Part shown: positions 56,869 through 64,000 of the stretch, piece by piece
How positions within the stretch are numbered: position 1 is the first letter of the stretch
Layout: each line of letters opens with the position of its first letter
Source of the DNA: Sellimonas caecigallum
GTDB lineage: Bacteria; Bacillota; Clostridia; Lachnospirales; Lachnospiraceae
Length of the DNA stretch: 64,000 nt
NCBI RefSeq assembly: GCF_019754295.1
Contig: NZ_VIRV01000002.1
Location: forward strand, 124,001 to 188,000
Direction of reading: 5' to 3'
Made by a program: the position numbers and the translations under genes
The notes under the pieces: model-generated
The model's database searches: none
Told to the model about the DNA's origin: nothing
What the model saw: only the letters and a program-made list of their open reading frames with translations

Positions 56869-59226
56869 TTATTTGAAATCATCTTCTTTCAGAATGATCC
56901 GATCTGATTCATCCGTACTCTTTCTGAACACTCTCTTCATCAGGTGTTTCACATTTGCCTTCTGAGAATGTGCAATGGCTTCATCCATGATTTCCTTAAC
57001 TTCCGCAACTGTAACGAAATGATCCTCCTTCTGCATCACGTCAATCCTGCTGTACAATGCCAGAATTCCCATCTCGTCGATAGTATAACCGTTTTCTTTG
57101 GCGTAGGTCTGTCCAAATGTAACAAGTTCATCGTTGATGAAAATAGGAAGTTCTACACGGGATGTAAATTTCCGTTTAAAGTCCGGATTTGCAGAAAGCA
57201 TTTTTTCAAGAGGACGTCTCTCTTCTTCCAGTATAAAAAGCATTTCTCCAGTCTGTTCTTCCATAAGACTGCTCAGATGGGACAGCGTCTTCTTATTCAT
57301 CTTACATGCTTTCTCAATGATCAGAGCTCCGCCCTGAAGTTTCTGGATGATGGCTTCCAGATTTTTCTGGTTCAGCGCATCTCCTGTAATGATCGCAACC
57401 TTTCCCTGTTTCATTTTTCTCTGCTTTTGTATCGCTTTGACAAGATCCACTGCAAGCACCGTTTTTCCGGATCCTTTATGTCCTATCACAAGGATATTGC
57501 CGGTACGTGATGTCCCATATCTCTTTTTACATGTCTTATCCTGTTCCAGTACATGCACGATCTGCTCACTCATTCCCCTGATCGGTACAAAGTAGGAAAA
57601 CAATTTTTTCTGTTCTTCTGTAAGCCCTGCTTTGAGCCCGATCTCACTTGTGGCGCTCAGATCATATCTTCCCTGCACGACAAATCCGGTATCGAAAGAC
57701 ACACCGCCCGGAGATGAAGATGTAGCATCTTCCTCATCTGGCTCTTCAATTTCAAGCACTTCCTCTGTCTCCGGCACTTTCGCGAAGATATCTTCCTCTT
57801 CATTCTGCTCTTCGTCGTACTCCTCTTCTGGATATTCTTCTTCGTCGTATTCCTCTTCCGAATACTCTTCTTCGTCGTACTCCTCTTCTGGATATTCTTC
57901 TTCGTCGTACTCTTCTTCCGGATATTCTTCTTCGTCGTATTCCTCTTCCGGATACTCTTCTTCGTCGTACTCCTCTTCCGGATACTCTTCTTCGTCGTAC
58001 TCCTCTTCCGGATATTCTTCGTCGTCGTATTCCTCTTCCGGATACTCTTCTTCGTCGTACTCTTCTTCTGAATACTCTTCTTCGGACTCTTCCTCTTCCT
58101 CCGCAGTTTCCCCTGATTCTTCAGCCGTTTCCTCTACCTTCGCTTGTTCTTCAGCCATTTCATCTTCGTCTGACTCTTCTTTCAACACTTCAGACAACTG
58201 AGAAACTTCATCCTCCGGTTCTGCTGTGACACCGTTTTTCTCGTCTTCGCTTTCCATTTCTGCGAGCAGTTTCTGAATGTCATCTGAAAGAATCTTTTCT
58301 GTATTACCAGAAACTTTCTGCTTCTCTTCTGCAGCTTTCTGCTCTGCCTCTCTTCTTTTCTCTTCAATTATCTCTGCATTTCTGCGCTGTTTTTCTTCCC
58401 ATTGCTGAAGAATCTCTTCAATTTTCAGCCGACCTGTCTCGTACACGTCCTCTTCTCCTTTTCCCGCCAATTTCTTCACTTCATCTATTGGCTTTTTGCT
58501 GGCAACTGCCATACCAAGCCAAAAAGCATCTTCCAGCGTTTCTGTCGTATCTGCTGCTTTCAAAATGGTTTCCGTCCAGTCTTCCTTCTGCTCCTGCACG
58601 CTTTCTTCCCGCTTTTCTTCTGCCCTGTCATATTTCCCCTGCTGCTGCGGTGTGAGCGGCTTGTGTTTCATCTTCAGCTCCATCGCTTTCTGAACGTAAA
58701 CGCCTTCGCTGAACCACAATATCAGGTCATCGCACTCTTCCATACATTCTTCCGCCATACCTGCGCGGTCATACAGCTCAGCCAGCTCATACGCCCATTT
58801 TTCAATATACTCAGCTTTCTTAAATTCTTCAAGGGTCTTGATCTGCTCCTCTATCGGAGCCCCCTGTTCTTTCTGAATTTTATATTTTAGTATGTACTGA
58901 TTCGGATCCTTCGGTGCAATCCGCACAAACTCTTCATAACAGTCCATCGCTTCATCTGTCTCCCCAAGACGAAGCGCGAGAGTCCCGAGCCGATATACGA
59001 TTTTTCTGCTCCCCGGACTTCTGTCGTAGGCAATAAACAGAATCTCTCTGCTCTTTTCAAAGTCTGCGTTACACTCATAAATCTCACTTACCGTACACAG
59101 AGTGGGAGCATTCTTCACTCTTCTCCAATCAATCGTGTCTGCGATCTCTTTCGCTTCCCTATAAGACTTTGCTTCGACGTATTTCATCATCTGTTCCGTC
59201 TTTTCACGGTATTCGTATTTATCCAA
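56869..59226 (-). CDS. TPR, acidic-repeat and P-loop ATPase protein of unknown function
   Basis: 785 residues. The first 190 are TPR-like helical repeats (YRLGTLALRLGETDEAMDCY). A charged coiled segment follows. Residues about 382-472 are nine tandem copies of EEYPEEEYDE. From about 525 comes an ATPase-like domain with P-loop GHKGSGKT near 580 and an Asp/Glu-rich Walker B region (MLFILEEERR), resembling AAA proteins of the CbxX/SpoVK type. There is no signal peptide or membrane helix. I favour TTG 59226 (AGAGGTGA at good distance) over GTG 59232. It is a single-gene unit; function unknown. The acidic spacer likely is disordered and binds basic or metal partners. Confidence 0.8.
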   Translation of the reverse strand: MDKYEYREKTEQMMKYVEAKSYREAKEIADTIDWRRVKNAPTLCTVSEIYECNADFEKSREILFIAYDRSPGSRKIVYRLGTLALRLGETDEAMDCYEEFVRIAPKDPNQYILKYKIQKEQGAPIEEQIKTLEEFKKAEYIEKWAYELAELYDRAGMAEECMEECDDLILWFSEGVYVQKAMELKMKHKPLTPQQQGKYDRAEEKREESVQEQKEDWTETILKAADTTETLEDAFWLGMAVASKKPIDEVKKLAGKGEEDVYETGRLKIEEILQQWEEKQRRNAEIIEEKRREAEQKAAEEKQKVSGNTEKILSDDIQKLLAEMESEDEKNGVTAEPEDEVSQLSEVLKEESDEDEMAEEQAKVEETAEESGETAEEEEESEEEYSEEEYDEEEYPEEEYDDEEYPEEEYDEEEYPEEEYDEEEYPEEEYDEEEYPEEEYDEEEYPEEEYDEEEYSEEEYDEEEYPEEEYDEEQNEEEDIFAKVPETEEVLEIEEPDEEDATSSSPGGVSFDTGFVVQGRYDLSATSEIGLKAGLTEEQKKLFSYFVPIRGMSEQIVHVLEQDKTCKKRYGTSRTGNILVIGHKGSGKTVLAVDLVKAIQKQRKMKQGKVAIITGDALNQKNLEAIIQKLQGGALIIEKACKMNKKTLSHLSSLMEEQTGEMLFILEEERRPLEKMLSANPDFKRKFTSRVELPIFINDELVTFGQTYAKENGYTIDEMGILALYSRIDVMQKEDHFVTVAEVKEIMDEAIAHSQKANVKHLMKRVFRKSTDESDRIILKEDDFK
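57811..58080. repeat. Tandem 30-bp repeat (nine units) in the coding region
   Basis: Period of exactly 30 bp, reading EEYPEEEYDE on the minus strand, with a few silent and Ser/Pro or Asp/Glu changes between units. In-frame copies could change in number by slippage. Confidence 0.92.
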
Positions 59227-59398
59227 CGTCACTCACCTCTATTAATTATTTACATTTCCTTCTGGCCAAAAAGGCATACTTTTTATTTTCTTAGTGTACC
59301 ATACCAGACTTTCAATGTCAAAATAATGGCCTCGTTTTTTTTCTCAAATATTACAAATTTATTAAATTTTTATATTTACAGCGTCGTTTTGAAAACAG

Positions 59399-59468: not shown

Positions 59469-60620
59469 CTATTCTCCTTTTTGTTTGATCGGAAGAACTG
59501 GATTTTCCGGTTCTACCGGATCACCTACTGTAAGACCTTCCATCTCTGCATCCGGACACACCTCTGTCCATGCCATATCCATAATTTCTTCTACTGTCAG
59601 ATCTTTTTTCTCAATAATTCCAAGACGCAGATAATCTTCTGCAATTTCATGGAGCGCCTGTTCAGTGAAGGCATCAGACAACCCGAAATGAAGAGAATCC
59701 CAGAATTCCTGCTGTACTTCTTTTTCGCCTGTCATTTTATCTGTATCATACATGAGCTGTACCGCCTCTTCTGACTGAAGTCGCGCATATTCTCCAGCGC
59801 GTTTGATCGCTTTTACTATATATTTGGCATGAACCGGGTTCTTTTTGAGGAATTCAGTGTTCATGGCTGTCACGCAACATGCTTCATCCTGAAACTCTGG
59901 GCTATATGTGATGGAACAGATGCTTCTCATCTTATCTTTGTAATTTGCCATCACAAAATAATCTGAGAAGATAGATGCATCCACTTCACCATTTTCCATC
60001 GCTGCCACTGTCGCAGCATTGTCCTCGATATTCGGAAATTCCACCTCTGTAGTCGGATCAATACCGTACTCATCCAGCAGCCGATAACTGATGTTCTGAT
60101 CAGAATTTCCCGGACCATCGTGAATAGCGATCCTTTTTCCTTTCAGATCTTGTACTGTCTTAATGTCACTGTCTGCCGGGACATAAATAGATTTACATCC
60201 AATATGTGCTCCGCAGACGAATGTCATTTTTACCCCGTTCGTTACAGGAACGAGCATTGTTGCAATATGATCAGTTCCCCACATACACTTTCCTGTTCCT
60301 ACTGTCTCCACAACAGATCCACCTTGAACATAAGTCGCATTGATTCCGTACTCTTCATAATATCCAAGCTGTTCTGCCAGATATTTTGCAGATACACATG
60401 CTCCCCCATTAAACAGATATTGAAGCTCTGTGCCGAAAGCTGGTTCTTTTTTCATAGCTTCCCAATCTTCCTCCGGCACTGCTTCCGGACGCTCCACATT
60501 TTTGCTCTCTGTTGTTTTCCCGGATGCAGCCTTGTCTTTGCTGTCATTCTGTCCACATGCAGCCATGGAAAATGCTAACACAGCAACCATCGCAACTGCC
60601 GCAACTTTTTTCAGTTTCAT
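59469..60620 (-). CDS. NMT1/SsuA-type substrate-binding lipoprotein
   Basis: 383 residues. Signal peptide with lipobox FSMAAC (Cys22). The body is of the NMT1/THI5-SsuA group: GGACVSAKYLAEQLGYYEEYGI, then DLKGKRIAIHDGPGNSDQ and NGEVDASIFSDYFV. These bind sulfonates, nitrate, taurine, bicarbonate or pyrimidine precursors. AAAGGAG precedes the ATG. Last gene of a permease-ATPase-SBP operon, 83 bp after the ATPase. Ligand not predictable. Confidence 0.9.
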   Translation of the reverse strand: MKLKKVAAVAMVAVLAFSMAACGQNDSKDKAASGKTTESKNVERPEAVPEEDWEAMKKEPAFGTELQYLFNGGACVSAKYLAEQLGYYEEYGINATYVQGGSVVETVGTGKCMWGTDHIATMLVPVTNGVKMTFVCGAHIGCKSIYVPADSDIKTVQDLKGKRIAIHDGPGNSDQNISYRLLDEYGIDPTTEVEFPNIEDNAATVAAMENGEVDASIFSDYFVMANYKDKMRSICSITYSPEFQDEACCVTAMNTEFLKKNPVHAKYIVKAIKRAGEYARLQSEEAVQLMYDTDKMTGEKEVQQEFWDSLHFGLSDAFTEQALHEIAEDYLRLGIIEKKDLTVEEIMDMAWTEVCPDAEMEGLTVGDPVEPENPVLPIKQKGE

Positions 60621-60703
60621 TTTCTTTTCTCCTTTATTTTCCTAAAATATTTATTCCAAAACCGGAATATATTTCATTCCTGGTTTCCAGAAACGTCATG
60701 AAA

Positions 60704-61483
60704 TCAGTCTGCCCTGTTCCCTCCAAAGTGCAGCCTGTTCAATATTTCATTTCGATATCGAACAAATGTCTCCGATGACCGATCTCTCGGATACTTTTCC
60801 GATATTTTGATATTCGCTACAACACGCCCCGGATTGGCATCCATGACAATCACACGGGTTCCCATATAGATAGCTTCGTCCACATCGTGTGTGACCATGA
60901 TGGCAAGCTGCCCCTTTTCCTGCCAGATTTTCAGAATCTCATCCTGCATATTCATACGTGTAAAGGCATCTAGTGCTCCCAAAGGCTCATCCAGCAGGAG
61001 GATATCTGGTTCATTAATCAAAGAGCGGACAAGAGCCACTCTCTGCGCCATTCCCCCTGATAACTGTCCCGGATAATCATCCCGGAAATTCTCAAGTCCG
61101 ATAACTTTGAGCATTGTCTCTACTTTCTCCTCATTTCCCCTCAGTTTCCCCTGCATTTTCAGGCTAAAAGCAATGTTATCCTTTACTGTAAGCCACGGAA
61201 AAAGCGTTGGCTTTTGAAAAACCATCCCTCTTTCCGGAGATGGTTCCACGATTTCCTTGCCATCCACAGTAACCTTTCCGGTAGTCGGTGCGATCAGTCC
61301 CGCTACAAGGCGCAAAATTGTAGATTTTCCGCAGCCAGATGGCCCTACAAGACTGATAAACTCTCCGCTTTCCATTGTAAGATCGATTTCATTAAGCGCA
61401 TGCGTAACTTCATCATTTTCTATTTTTGCAAAACTTTTGGACACATGATCCAGTTTTAATGTAACTTTCTTTTTTTTTGCCAT
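60704..61483 (-). CDS. ABC transporter ATP-binding protein (SsuB/TauB type)
   Basis: 259 residues. Walker A GPSGCGKST, Q-loop FQKPTLFPW, signature QLSGGMAQRVALVRSL, Walker B LLLDEPLGALD, H-loop VTHDVDEAIYMG. The ATG at 61483 overlaps the permease stop (TAATG). Energises the importer in the membrane. Confidence 0.94.
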   Translation of the reverse strand: MAKKKKVTLKLDHVSKSFAKIENDEVTHALNEIDLTMESGEFISLVGPSGCGKSTILRLVAGLIAPTTGKVTVDGKEIVEPSPERGMVFQKPTLFPWLTVKDNIAFSLKMQGKLRGNEEKVETMLKVIGLENFRDDYPGQLSGGMAQRVALVRSLINEPDILLLDEPLGALDAFTRMNMQDEILKIWQEKGQLAIMVTHDVDEAIYMGTRVIVMDANPGRVVANIKISEKYPRDRSSETFVRYRNEILNRLHFGGNRAD

Positions 61484-62556
61484 TATTTTACAACTCCATT
61501 CTGCCAACGTAATACACGGCGTTTGATTAAATCAAGAATCTTTGTCACAACTGTGAAAATGATACAGATCACAAACAGAGCCGCAAACATCTTATCATAG
61601 CTTGACCACGATTTTGCCCATGTCATATACCATCCGAGCCCAGCCTTTACTCCCATCATTTCCGCGATCATGATCGCAGTACAAGCTGAACTCATGGCCT
61701 GTGTACATCCCTGCAGGATGGAAGGCATCGCATGCGGGATTGCAACGCGAAACACGAGCTGCCTCTCCTTTGCCCCCAGCGTCCTAGCCGCTTCAAAAAA
61801 ATCTTTATCCACATTAGAAATTCCAGTCATAGAAGCTACCGTTACTGCAAACCAGGAGCCCAAAGCGATAATAAACACTGCACCGCCAAAAAGAGATGTC
61901 GCGATAACCATAATAATCGGAATCCATGTTGACGTTGGGATCGGACCGAGAAATTTGATGATCGGATCTATCCAATAACGCACTTTCCTGGAATATCCGC
62001 ATGTTATCCCGGTAATAAGACCAAGAAAAACCCCTATAAAATATCCCAGGAATAAAAGTCGCAATGTGTGAAGTGTGGATTCTATCAGATATGCACGGTC
62101 GATCCAGGCAATATTAAGAATTGCGTTCATACACGGAACAAAAGGTTGAGTAAATATCCCTGTCTTTAATGTCAAATAATCGTACCCTGCCAACAGCAGA
62201 AACAATGCTGAAAACAGCGGCGCTCTGTAACGGAACTTTTCTAGAACAAGTTTACTTCCTCTGAGCTTATTTATCAGTGCAATAAGCCCATAGCAAATGT
62301 ACGCACAGAGAAATACTATCAATGCTCCCAAGTAAGTATTGGGATTGTCATTGCTGCTTCCATTTGGGACTATTAGATACTCAAGAATCGCAATTATACC
62401 GCAGACTACTGGAAATACCATGATGATCCCATCCAGCACTTTTTGTCCGACTGTCTTTTCTTTTGTTTCTAGATCCCGAAGCTGCTGTCGTGTCAACTGC
62501 GCAAGGTTTGTGGTGCCCGCACTTTTCTTTTTGTTTGAATCTTTGTTAATTCCCAT
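61483..62556 (-). CDS. ABC transporter permease (SsuC/TauC type)
   Basis: 357 residues. An unusual N-terminal part of about 150 residues carries three or four extra helices before the standard BPD_transp_1 domain (SSWTMG-like coupling region EAARTLGAKERQLVFRVAIPHA). ATG 62556 has AAGGAG eight bases before; an in-frame GTG one codon earlier is too close. Promoter TTGATG-17-CATAAT at 62649-62621. Confidence 0.92.
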   Translation of the reverse strand: MGINKDSNKKKSAGTTNLAQLTRQQLRDLETKEKTVGQKVLDGIIMVFPVVCGIIAILEYLIVPNGSSNDNPNTYLGALIVFLCAYICYGLIALINKLRGSKLVLEKFRYRAPLFSALFLLLAGYDYLTLKTGIFTQPFVPCMNAILNIAWIDRAYLIESTLHTLRLLFLGYFIGVFLGLITGITCGYSRKVRYWIDPIIKFLGPIPTSTWIPIIMVIATSLFGGAVFIIALGSWFAVTVASMTGISNVDKDFFEAARTLGAKERQLVFRVAIPHAMPSILQGCTQAMSSACTAIMIAEMMGVKAGLGWYMTWAKSWSSYDKMFAALFVICIIFTVVTKILDLIKRRVLRWQNGVVK

Positions 62557-62620
62557 CACATGTACTCCTTATTTCACACATTCCATCTTAATTACAGGAA
62601 AACTGGTCATTTGCAAAAGT

Positions 62621-62649
62621 ATTATGCCATAGGAATTTCCGTGCATCAA
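62621..62649 (-). promoter_or_regulatory. Promoter of the ABC transporter operon
   Basis: TTGATG, 17 bp, CATAAT with an extended TGn before the -10 box. Confidence 0.55.
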
Positions 62650-62691
62650 ATTGATAATTTTTGTAATTCGGAAAATTTATAAAATTTGTCA

Positions 62692-62736
62692 ATAAAAAAA
62701 CAGCCATTACAATTTTTATAAATTATAATGGCTGTT
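62692..62736 (-). terminator. Terminator at the end of the pseudogene
   Basis: AACAGCCATTA pairs with TAATGGCTGTT (11 bp), then T7 on the minus strand. It begins three bases past the remnant stop codon at 62739. Confidence 0.85.
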
Positions 62737-62738
62737 AC

Positions 62739-63330
62739 CTATTCAATTTTAATATCATATTTTTTCCCTTTACCGGAGGAATCTTTCTTTTCGATTTCCG
62801 GTTCCCAAAAGCCTTTTTCTTTTTATATACGAACTATAACTCAAAGTCTCCGATTCATTTTCCGATAATGTAATCTTTGATATCAAAATTCTTATATTCC
62901 CTTTTATATATAGATAATCTAATTAACTTCCGGATATTCTGCCGATATATTATTTACTAAAAGAAATATTCTTTTTCGTTTCTATGGGTTCTGCCTTTCG
63001 CTTCCTCCCCTAAATGATATCCGCGTACTCAATCTTTCTTGTTTTTTCAATTAAATATATTATAATCGGCCAATATAGATTTTGATCTTAGGCGATGTTT
63101 CTTTACACATCTTCTAAATTCTTTGAACTACTGACTGCTGTGGTATCTTCCTCAATATGCTTTACAGATTTTGTAAAATCTAATTTCCAGTTTAAACTAC
63201 ATCTCCGATATTTTCTTTCTATAAACTCAACTATTTACTGGATTCCGATTTATTGATAAAGGCTTTCATCATGGGAACCTTCATCTGTAATACCACTTAC
63301 ATATTGAGTTTTAAGTTCTGCTGTGTCCAA
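62739..63330 (-). pseudogene. Frameshifted remnant of a protein of about 190 residues
   Basis: On the minus strand a possible TTG start at 63330 follows GAGGAGGG. Protein-like segments then alternate between frames: DTAELKTQYVSGITDEGSHD; RRCSLNWKLDFTKSVKHIEE; RRCVKKHRLRSKSILADYN; RKIEYADII; AEPIETKKNISFS; NNISAEYPEVN; RLSIYKREYKNFDIKDYIIG; NESETLSYSSYIK; EKGFWEPEIEKKDSSGKG, ending IKIE-stop at 62741-62739. Removing one base in each of several short A or T runs (for example at 62820-62824 and 62858-62861) joins the last pieces. I do not recognise the family. Promoter and terminator are intact, so decay may be recent. Confidence 0.6.
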
Positions 63331-63441
63331 TGGTTCAAGCCCTCCTCATCCTGATATTTCCAATTTGCTTATAAGAGAAACAACTTATAAGTTTTTGAAA
63401 GAACTCTTTCTCGTCAAGTTCTTTTCTTTTTGGATAGCTAT

Positions 63442-63470
63442 ACTATAGCATTCTCTCTTCTATTTGTCAA
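63442..63470 (-). promoter_or_regulatory. Strong promoter upstream of the pseudogene
   Basis: TTGACA (63470-63465), exactly 17 bp, TATAGT (63447-63442). Behind it is 120 bp of very AT-rich DNA that could act as an UP element. The roughly 100-nt leader contains an AAAGAACT/AGTTCTTT hairpin. Confidence 0.7.
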
Positions 63471-63666
63471 TACTATTCTTCGATATTTTTTATTTTTATT
63501 TAAATTTTTATTTTTAATTGTTTTATTTTTCTGAATTATTCTTTTTAATTATTCAATTTTCTATTTTTAATTTCTATCTTCATTTACAGGCACATCCGTG
63601 CTAAACTTAATAAGTATCATTTATATATTGACATACTGTATAGTTGTGAAAGGAGATTTACACATT

Positions 63667-64000
63667 ATGGGCGGATTTTTTGGCGTTGCTTCTAAAAATG
63701 AATGTATCATCGATTTATTTTATGGAGTAGACTACCACTCACATCTTGGTACTAGAAGAGGCGGAATGGCGACACATGGGGAGAACGGTTTCAGCCGATC
63801 CATCCACAATATCGAAAATTCCCCGTTCCGTACCAAATTTGACAAGGATCTGGAAGAATTAAAAGGAAATCTGGGAATCGGCTGTATATCCGATTATGAA
63901 CCGCAGCCACTTCTGATCCAGTCTCATCTTGGAAGTTTTGCCATCACGACAGTCGGAAAAATCAATAATCAGGATGCACTGCTTAAAACGATCTACAAGG
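63667..64000 (+). CDS. PurF-like amidophosphoribosyltransferase homologue lacking the glutaminase site (partial)
   Basis: 111 codons, cut by the window edge. The N-terminal nucleophile-hydrolase fold of PurF is recognisable (GGFFGVASK ... DYHSHLGTRRGGMAT), but residue 2 is Gly where the catalytic Cys must be, the HxRYST loop reads GIGCISDYEPQP and the HNG motif reads TVGKINN. The glutaminase reaction should thus be impossible. AAAGGAG precedes the ATG. Whether the phosphoribosyl domain follows lies outside the window. Such proteins occur beside normal PurF in clostridia; their role is unclear. Confidence 0.8.
   Translation, partial: MGGFFGVASKNECIIDLFYGVDYHSHLGTRRGGMATHGENGFSRSIHNIENSPFRTKFDKDLEELKGNLGIGCISDYEPQPLLIQSHLGSFAITTVGKINNQDALLKTIYK

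Follow-up and report, generated by a model that had tools for sequence, protein, structure and literature searches.

RNAIII of Staphylococcus aureus is a dual-function RNA that encodes delta-haemolysin. Like RNAIII, the RNA described here belongs to a Gram-positive bacterium, is long, structured and of regulatory type, and has a short open reading frame (sORF) in its 5′ portion, together with a C-rich element in another place. It differs in that the sORF lies inside a pseudoknotted core, in that no Rfam match to RNAIII was found, and in that our searches recovered it from Lachnospiraceae only. With OLE, ROOL, GOLLD and raiA RNAs it shares large size, intricate architecture, conserved pairing and a role that is unknown or partly known; here, however, there is no Rfam match beyond chance level and the core contains an sORF.

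Two further RNAs invite comparison. The smtA motif, or 'Soda Lake RNA', exceeds 350 nt, shows covariation, has been assigned no role and is described as exclusive to Thioalkalivibrio (PMC11109978); ours is likewise a large covarying motif, but of Lachnospiraceae. VcdRP of Vibrio cholerae combines a base-pairing role and a 29-residue protein in one RNA (PMC8672173), comparable to the dual function that we propose below; its lineage is unrelated, and the comparison is one of descriptions. In an incomplete coverage of the literature, the names Lachnospiraceae, Blautia and Dorea were not found in the main text of PMC11109978, PMC8632094 and PMC8040213. The last of these gives 3161 candidates of 27-219 bp in its supplementary tables, and a fragment of the Lachnospiraceae RNA may therefore be among them.

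Large RNAs with a conserved fold are rare, and the present one comes from Lachnospiraceae, which abound as commensals of the gut. Below we present what is, on good support from sequence comparison, an intact minus-strand gene for a large structured RNA, with a promoter and a terminator of its own. The account we find most probable, though by no means certain, is that it encodes a stand-alone structured RNA of Lachnospiraceae with a dual function, in which translation of the sORF and folding of the core would be mutually exclusive.

Results and discussion

A minus-strand gene with its own promoter and terminator

The window analysed is a 64,000-nt stretch of Sellimonas caecigallum DNA, to which all coordinates refer. 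An ABC permease gene (61483-62559, minus strand) and a gene starting at 63667 (plus strand), which from its sequence we take to be purF-like, leave a 1.1 kb gap, and the RNA gene lies within it. Its outer features are:

63442..63470, minus strand: promoter TTGACA-17-TATAGT with TG before the −10 hexamer, identified by sequence match and by conservation in homologues
62694..63435, minus strand: predicted transcript of ~742 nt, its start estimated 7 nt after the −10 hexamer
63398..63425, minus strand: 5′ hairpin with loop UGACGAGAAAG; loop-like sequence is found in other copies
62694..62735, minus strand: intrinsic terminator, a 17-bp stem followed by T7

Both ends had been noticed in a first-pass annotation of this DNA, and both held up. 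The promoter is present at 63470-63442 and conserved in homologues. Its hexamers match at 11 of 12 positions, with TG upstream, and it is the top site among 7 promoter-like sites; since 7.3 such sites were expected, the match by itself is not evidence, and it is the conservation that counts. In 53 of 68 homologous loci TTGACA is found no more than 260 nt upstream of the core, usually with TGNTATTAT-type sequence after it. The terminator hairpin, at 62736-62699, is the single strong one found, against 0.2 expected, and of the 65 loci long enough for the test (three others were too short), 50 have a hairpin followed by a T-run within 560 nt after the core, with wide variation in the core-to-terminator spacing. 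Two sister genomes of the same genus have the element in the same position upstream of the purF-like gene; measured from promoter through terminator, it is 77% identical. The UGACGAGAAAG loop of the 5′ hairpin, or a near variant of it, was found in 44 of 140 copies; the arms vary between copies, and arms of at least four pairs are formed in 26 of 31 distinct copies with a UGACGAGAAAG-like loop.

A conserved pseudoknotted core

Comparison of homologous loci establishes a conserved core, predicted to consist of helix P1, a pseudoknot (PK1), helix P2 and hairpins P4 and P5:

63300..63307, minus strand: 5′ strand of P1, UCAAUAUG, holding the QY codons of the sORF; partner 63152-63159
63152..63159, minus strand: 3′ strand of P1, CAUAUUGA; partner 63300-63307
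63291..63296, minus strand: 5′ strand of PK1, GUGGUA; partner UACCAC at 63140-63145
63140..63145, minus strand: 3′ strand of PK1, UACCAC; partner GUGGUA at 63291-63296
63283..63289, minus strand: 5′ strand of P2; partner 63163-63169
63163..63169, minus strand: 3′ strand of P2; partner 63283-63289
63187..63241, minus strand: hairpin P4 (CCAGU/ACUGG), 93.6% paired, its loop with UAUCGGAG at 63203-63210
63088..63117, minus strand: hairpin P5 around the conserved GUGUAAAGAAACAU, identified by covariation and pairing counts

Pairing was counted in a set of 66 sequences, from which the two weakest matches of the sequence-only model R1 (L119 and L120) had been left out, and in a 62-sequence alignment (A3) from which L092, L100, L115 and L117 had been left out as well. 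In the latter P1 is 98.7% paired and PK1 98.1%, with five of the six PK1 pairs changed on both sides; P2 is 77.2% paired and has both-side changes in all seven of its pairs. The strands of P1 and PK1 interleave (5′ P1, 5′ PK1, 3′ P1, 3′ PK1), which makes the core a true pseudoknot. P4 is a hairpin of the CCGGU/ACCGG type, in which one pair is G-C 25 times and A-U 18 times, with gaps in 18 of 62 rows.

Taken together, the 27 pairs of four helices are 92.1% paired in the 62 sequences, versus 83.8% when sequences are shuffled and 30-40% when strands are slid, and the double-changed cells number 138 versus 41.4 in shuffles, with kinship ignored. With P5 added, the 66 sequences are 89.9% paired versus 79.0% shuffled and have 218 versus 70.4 double-changed cells, again with kinship ignored; the helices counted in both cases had been named on these same alignments. 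Mutual information calculated without a given structure placed a P1 pair first (z=16.9; UA 33, AU 20, GC 7 and CG 2 of 64), and its top list also contains P2 and P5 pairs, plus several pairs of unpaired columns. The fold energy has z=−3.2 (20 shuffles).

Two further pairings are supported, but more weakly: P0, which would mask the Shine-Dalgarno sequence of the sORF, and P6, a putative long-range helix in which the P4 loop pairs with a 3′ element adjacent to the terminator:

63340..63347, minus strand: Shine-Dalgarno sequence GAGGAGGG, whose 3′ part pairs with the sORF tail (P0)
63258..63265, minus strand: 3′ strand of P0, AAGCCUUU, within the sORF; 5′ strand at 63337-63344
62771..62778, minus strand: 3′ element CUCCGGUA, proposed P6 partner of the P4 loop (63203-63210) through CGGAG/CUCCG pairing

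For P0, the Shine-Dalgarno region and the AAGCCUU segment of the same molecule have a mean pairing score of 14.6, versus 12.7 with the segments of other copies (65 of 66 rows, one being too short; none of 100 permutations scored as high). For P6, AUCGGAG of the P4 loop faces CUCCGAU near the terminator, 35 of 62 copies have CGGAG/CUCCG as their best downstream match, and compensatory variants occur in L128, L091 and L105; single-copy shuffle values are weak, often 0.05-0.2, and copies near Blautia are without the 3′ CUCCG element.

In six loci (L011, L013, L014, L017, L021 and L030) a conserved UUUCAUAUGUNGGUGAGAUA in the upstream part resembles the 5′ strand of P1/PK1 (UCAAUAUGUUAGUGGUAU) and might compete with it for the same partners.

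A short frame made of helix strands

The core contains one conserved frame:

63250..63330, minus strand: sORF of 26 codons with a TTG start, (M)DTAELKTQYVSGITDEGSHDESLYQ, with its own Shine-Dalgarno sequence and a conserved frame

Several properties suggest that an sORF of about 15-36 codons is likely translated in most copies. A Shine-Dalgarno sequence is kept about 9 nt before the start codon, at which ATG (64), TTG (60) and GTG (10 of 134 copies) interchange. In 132 of 134 resolved copies the start and the QY codons are separated by a multiple of three nucleotides (24, 27, 30 or 33 nt, and once 57 nt), the frame being broken in the other two, and the frame is open through QY in 125 of the 134. 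These counts leave aside five unresolved copies and seven more that gave no start, and include some genomes present under two names. Among 98 distinct copies, frame 0 is open through QYxxGxA in 89, versus 38 and 15 for the other two frames. Typical peptides end in QYESGKA (15 aa) or are 26-36 aa long. Around the start codon (~63327-63333, minus strand, and homologues), CC, two bases and UGG are nearly invariant in the 66-sequence alignment, a conservation that exceeds what a start codon needs.

The alternative that survives best is that this is a purely structural non-coding RNA whose short frame is an untranslated by-product of conserved sequence. We regard it as possible but on the unlikely side. 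It is consistent with the in-frame stop before QY in 9 of 134 copies, with the coincidence of the conserved residues with paired bases, and with the absence of any Pfam or NCBIfam match for the three sORF peptides tried. The codon-substitution signal is weak too: the variable part has only a slight tendency towards conservative substitution, and frame 2 has an excess of similar size. Against it stand a retained Shine-Dalgarno sequence, interchangeable start codons, spacing in steps of three with two exceptions and a preference for one frame.

The converse alternative, a small-protein gene whose mRNA is incidentally structured and whose peptide is the sole product, accommodates the same frame conservation and is nevertheless improbable. 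The transcript runs hundreds of nucleotides beyond the frame, and the downstream pairing is conserved. Moreover, some changes (in L113, L095 and L099) preserve a helix yet alter the peptide, so that constraint on the RNA can override that on the peptide.

The reading we prefer, an RNA that is both translated and folded, follows the layout of the frame. Its Shine-Dalgarno sequence, its QY codons and the codons that follow also serve as strands of P0, P1 and PK1, and P2 starts just after. A ribosome on the frame would have to open these helices, and the folded core would have to hide the start. Because the Shine-Dalgarno sequence, middle and tail of the frame are strands of P0, P1, PK1 and P2, translation and folding would exclude each other; this follows from the anatomy if both states occur, and is speculative. 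The RNA may thus alternate between two forms, one translated, the other folded and acting as RNA. The folded RNA might make contact through its CCUCC-type 3′ element or its 5′ loop, the CUCCG element and the UGACGAGAAAG loop being the only candidates that we can name.

We tentatively go one step further, with rather less confidence than in dual function as such, and suggest an undescribed Lachnospiraceae RNA family in which codons double as helix strands, forming a ribosome-operated switch between a peptide mRNA and an active structured RNA. If this is true, translating the frame of about 15-36 codons within the pseudoknotted core opens up the fold, and the folded core in turn silences that frame. 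The overlap of codons with pseudoknot strands would make it a case in which control of RNA folding by translation can be tested directly.

Occurrence in Lachnospiraceae and neighbouring genes

A DNA search of 250 genomes of the family gave matches in 22, some of them by chance. A sequence-only model (R1) matched 67 of 397 family genomes, and a covariance model including the structure (R2) matched 81 of the same 397 at E≤0.01, mostly with one copy each. R2 matches below 1e-5 came from at least 10 genomes that were absent from the R1 list and unused in building R2; two weak R1 matches (G301 and G408) were not recovered by R2. Beyond the family, under a stricter filter that loses weak matches, R1 found only the window's own copy among 96 genomes at order level, and R2 found two matches, both within the family, among 291 genomes at class level. 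An exact pattern occurred in 89 stretches of GTDB contigs; the 80 listed include Lachnospiraceae genera such as Dorea, Blautia, Sellimonas, Faecalicatena and Robinsoniella, together with less exact titles (Eubacterium, Ruminococcus, Clostridiales and Firmicutes). Presence in about a fifth of the sampled Lachnospiraceae genomes, together with absence from Rfam, points to a conserved function. The pattern was found in no viral contig and matched no plasmid or phage, and we rejected a mobile or viral element. One genome (G099) carries two diverged copies of the RNA, L105 and L108, at different places.

On the far side of the permease gene, the window contains:

59469..62559, minus strand: ABC transporter genes (NMT1-type binding protein, ATPase, permease), between the RNA and the TPR/AAA gene
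56869..59232, minus strand: gene for a TPR and AAA-like ATPase protein with weak matches to CbbX and EccA models, which often adjoins the RNA

The TPR/AAA protein carries a long acidic repeat of the DEEEYPEEEY type. The two sister genomes lack the ABC transporter operon at that place, a difference due to lineage-specific insertion or loss.

In 32 of 68 loci the next gene on the same strand is that of the TPR/AAA protein, so the element could be a cis-acting leader (a riboswitch or attenuator) of its next gene, usually this one. We consider this very unlikely. Cis-regulatory leaders would have a constant same-strand gene downstream; in 10 of the 68 loci, instead, the nearest following gene of 200 aa or more is convergent, so that there the RNA is not a leader. 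In the window the ABC transporter operon separates the RNA from the TPR/AAA gene, and a terminator stands before the next gene. The protein occurs in 357 of 397 family genomes, versus 81 for the RNA, and its co-occurrence with the RNA is uninformative because it is nearly universal. With its own promoter and terminator and varying neighbours, the element is therefore a stand-alone transcription unit.

Protein-coding potential outside the short frame

The first-pass annotation had read the element as a recently decayed protein gene that keeps an intact promoter and terminator, its protein-like segments lying in alternating frames and joinable by single-base changes; short open segments do alternate between frames, but we give this reading next to no weight, since the sister genomes contradict it, no homologue inspected has an intact protein gene at the element, pairing is conserved and indels do not come in threes.

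The longest sense-strand ORF is no longer than in random sequence (median 37.5 aa in 66 loci versus 37 after Markov resampling). For six of the supposedly protein-like segments, Pfam had nothing better than E=0.18. Nor do the segments appear joinable: indels between the window and the two sister genomes are multiples of three in 2 of 22 and 1 of 19 cases (3 of 41 together), and a long ORF at the element is absent from both sister genomes. Recent gene loss is not supported, since neither the sister species nor any family locus inspected has an intact protein gene at this element; nor is slippage between frames, no frame being maintained outside the one sORF. The remaining suggestion, that the transcript now works as RNA, was right in substance, except that the sequence and base pairing of the element are conserved across many genera, as befits an old RNA gene and not a recent conversion. 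This case is a warning that AT-rich 'decayed genes' may be RNA genes.

On the antisense strand, the longest ORF has a median of 61 aa versus 52 in random sequence (95th percentile 94), and the promoter and terminator point the opposite way; an antisense-strand ORF was rejected.

Comparison with known RNA families

No Rfam family matches the RNA, with OLE, ROOL, GOLLD, raiA and RNase P among those covered. Searching the stretch of the window against Rfam at E≤1 gave three matches, all far below the gathering cut-off, and eight of the loci at E≤0.5 gave two miRNA matches, also far below it. Two known RNAs were considered and rejected: the genome's 6S RNA scores over the cut-off on another contig (C34), and ARAGORN found no tmRNA gene in 62500-63700. 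At gathering, 20 homologous loci returned only a T-box, located elsewhere in L128; this T-box leader lies near the RNA locus, at L128:562-765.
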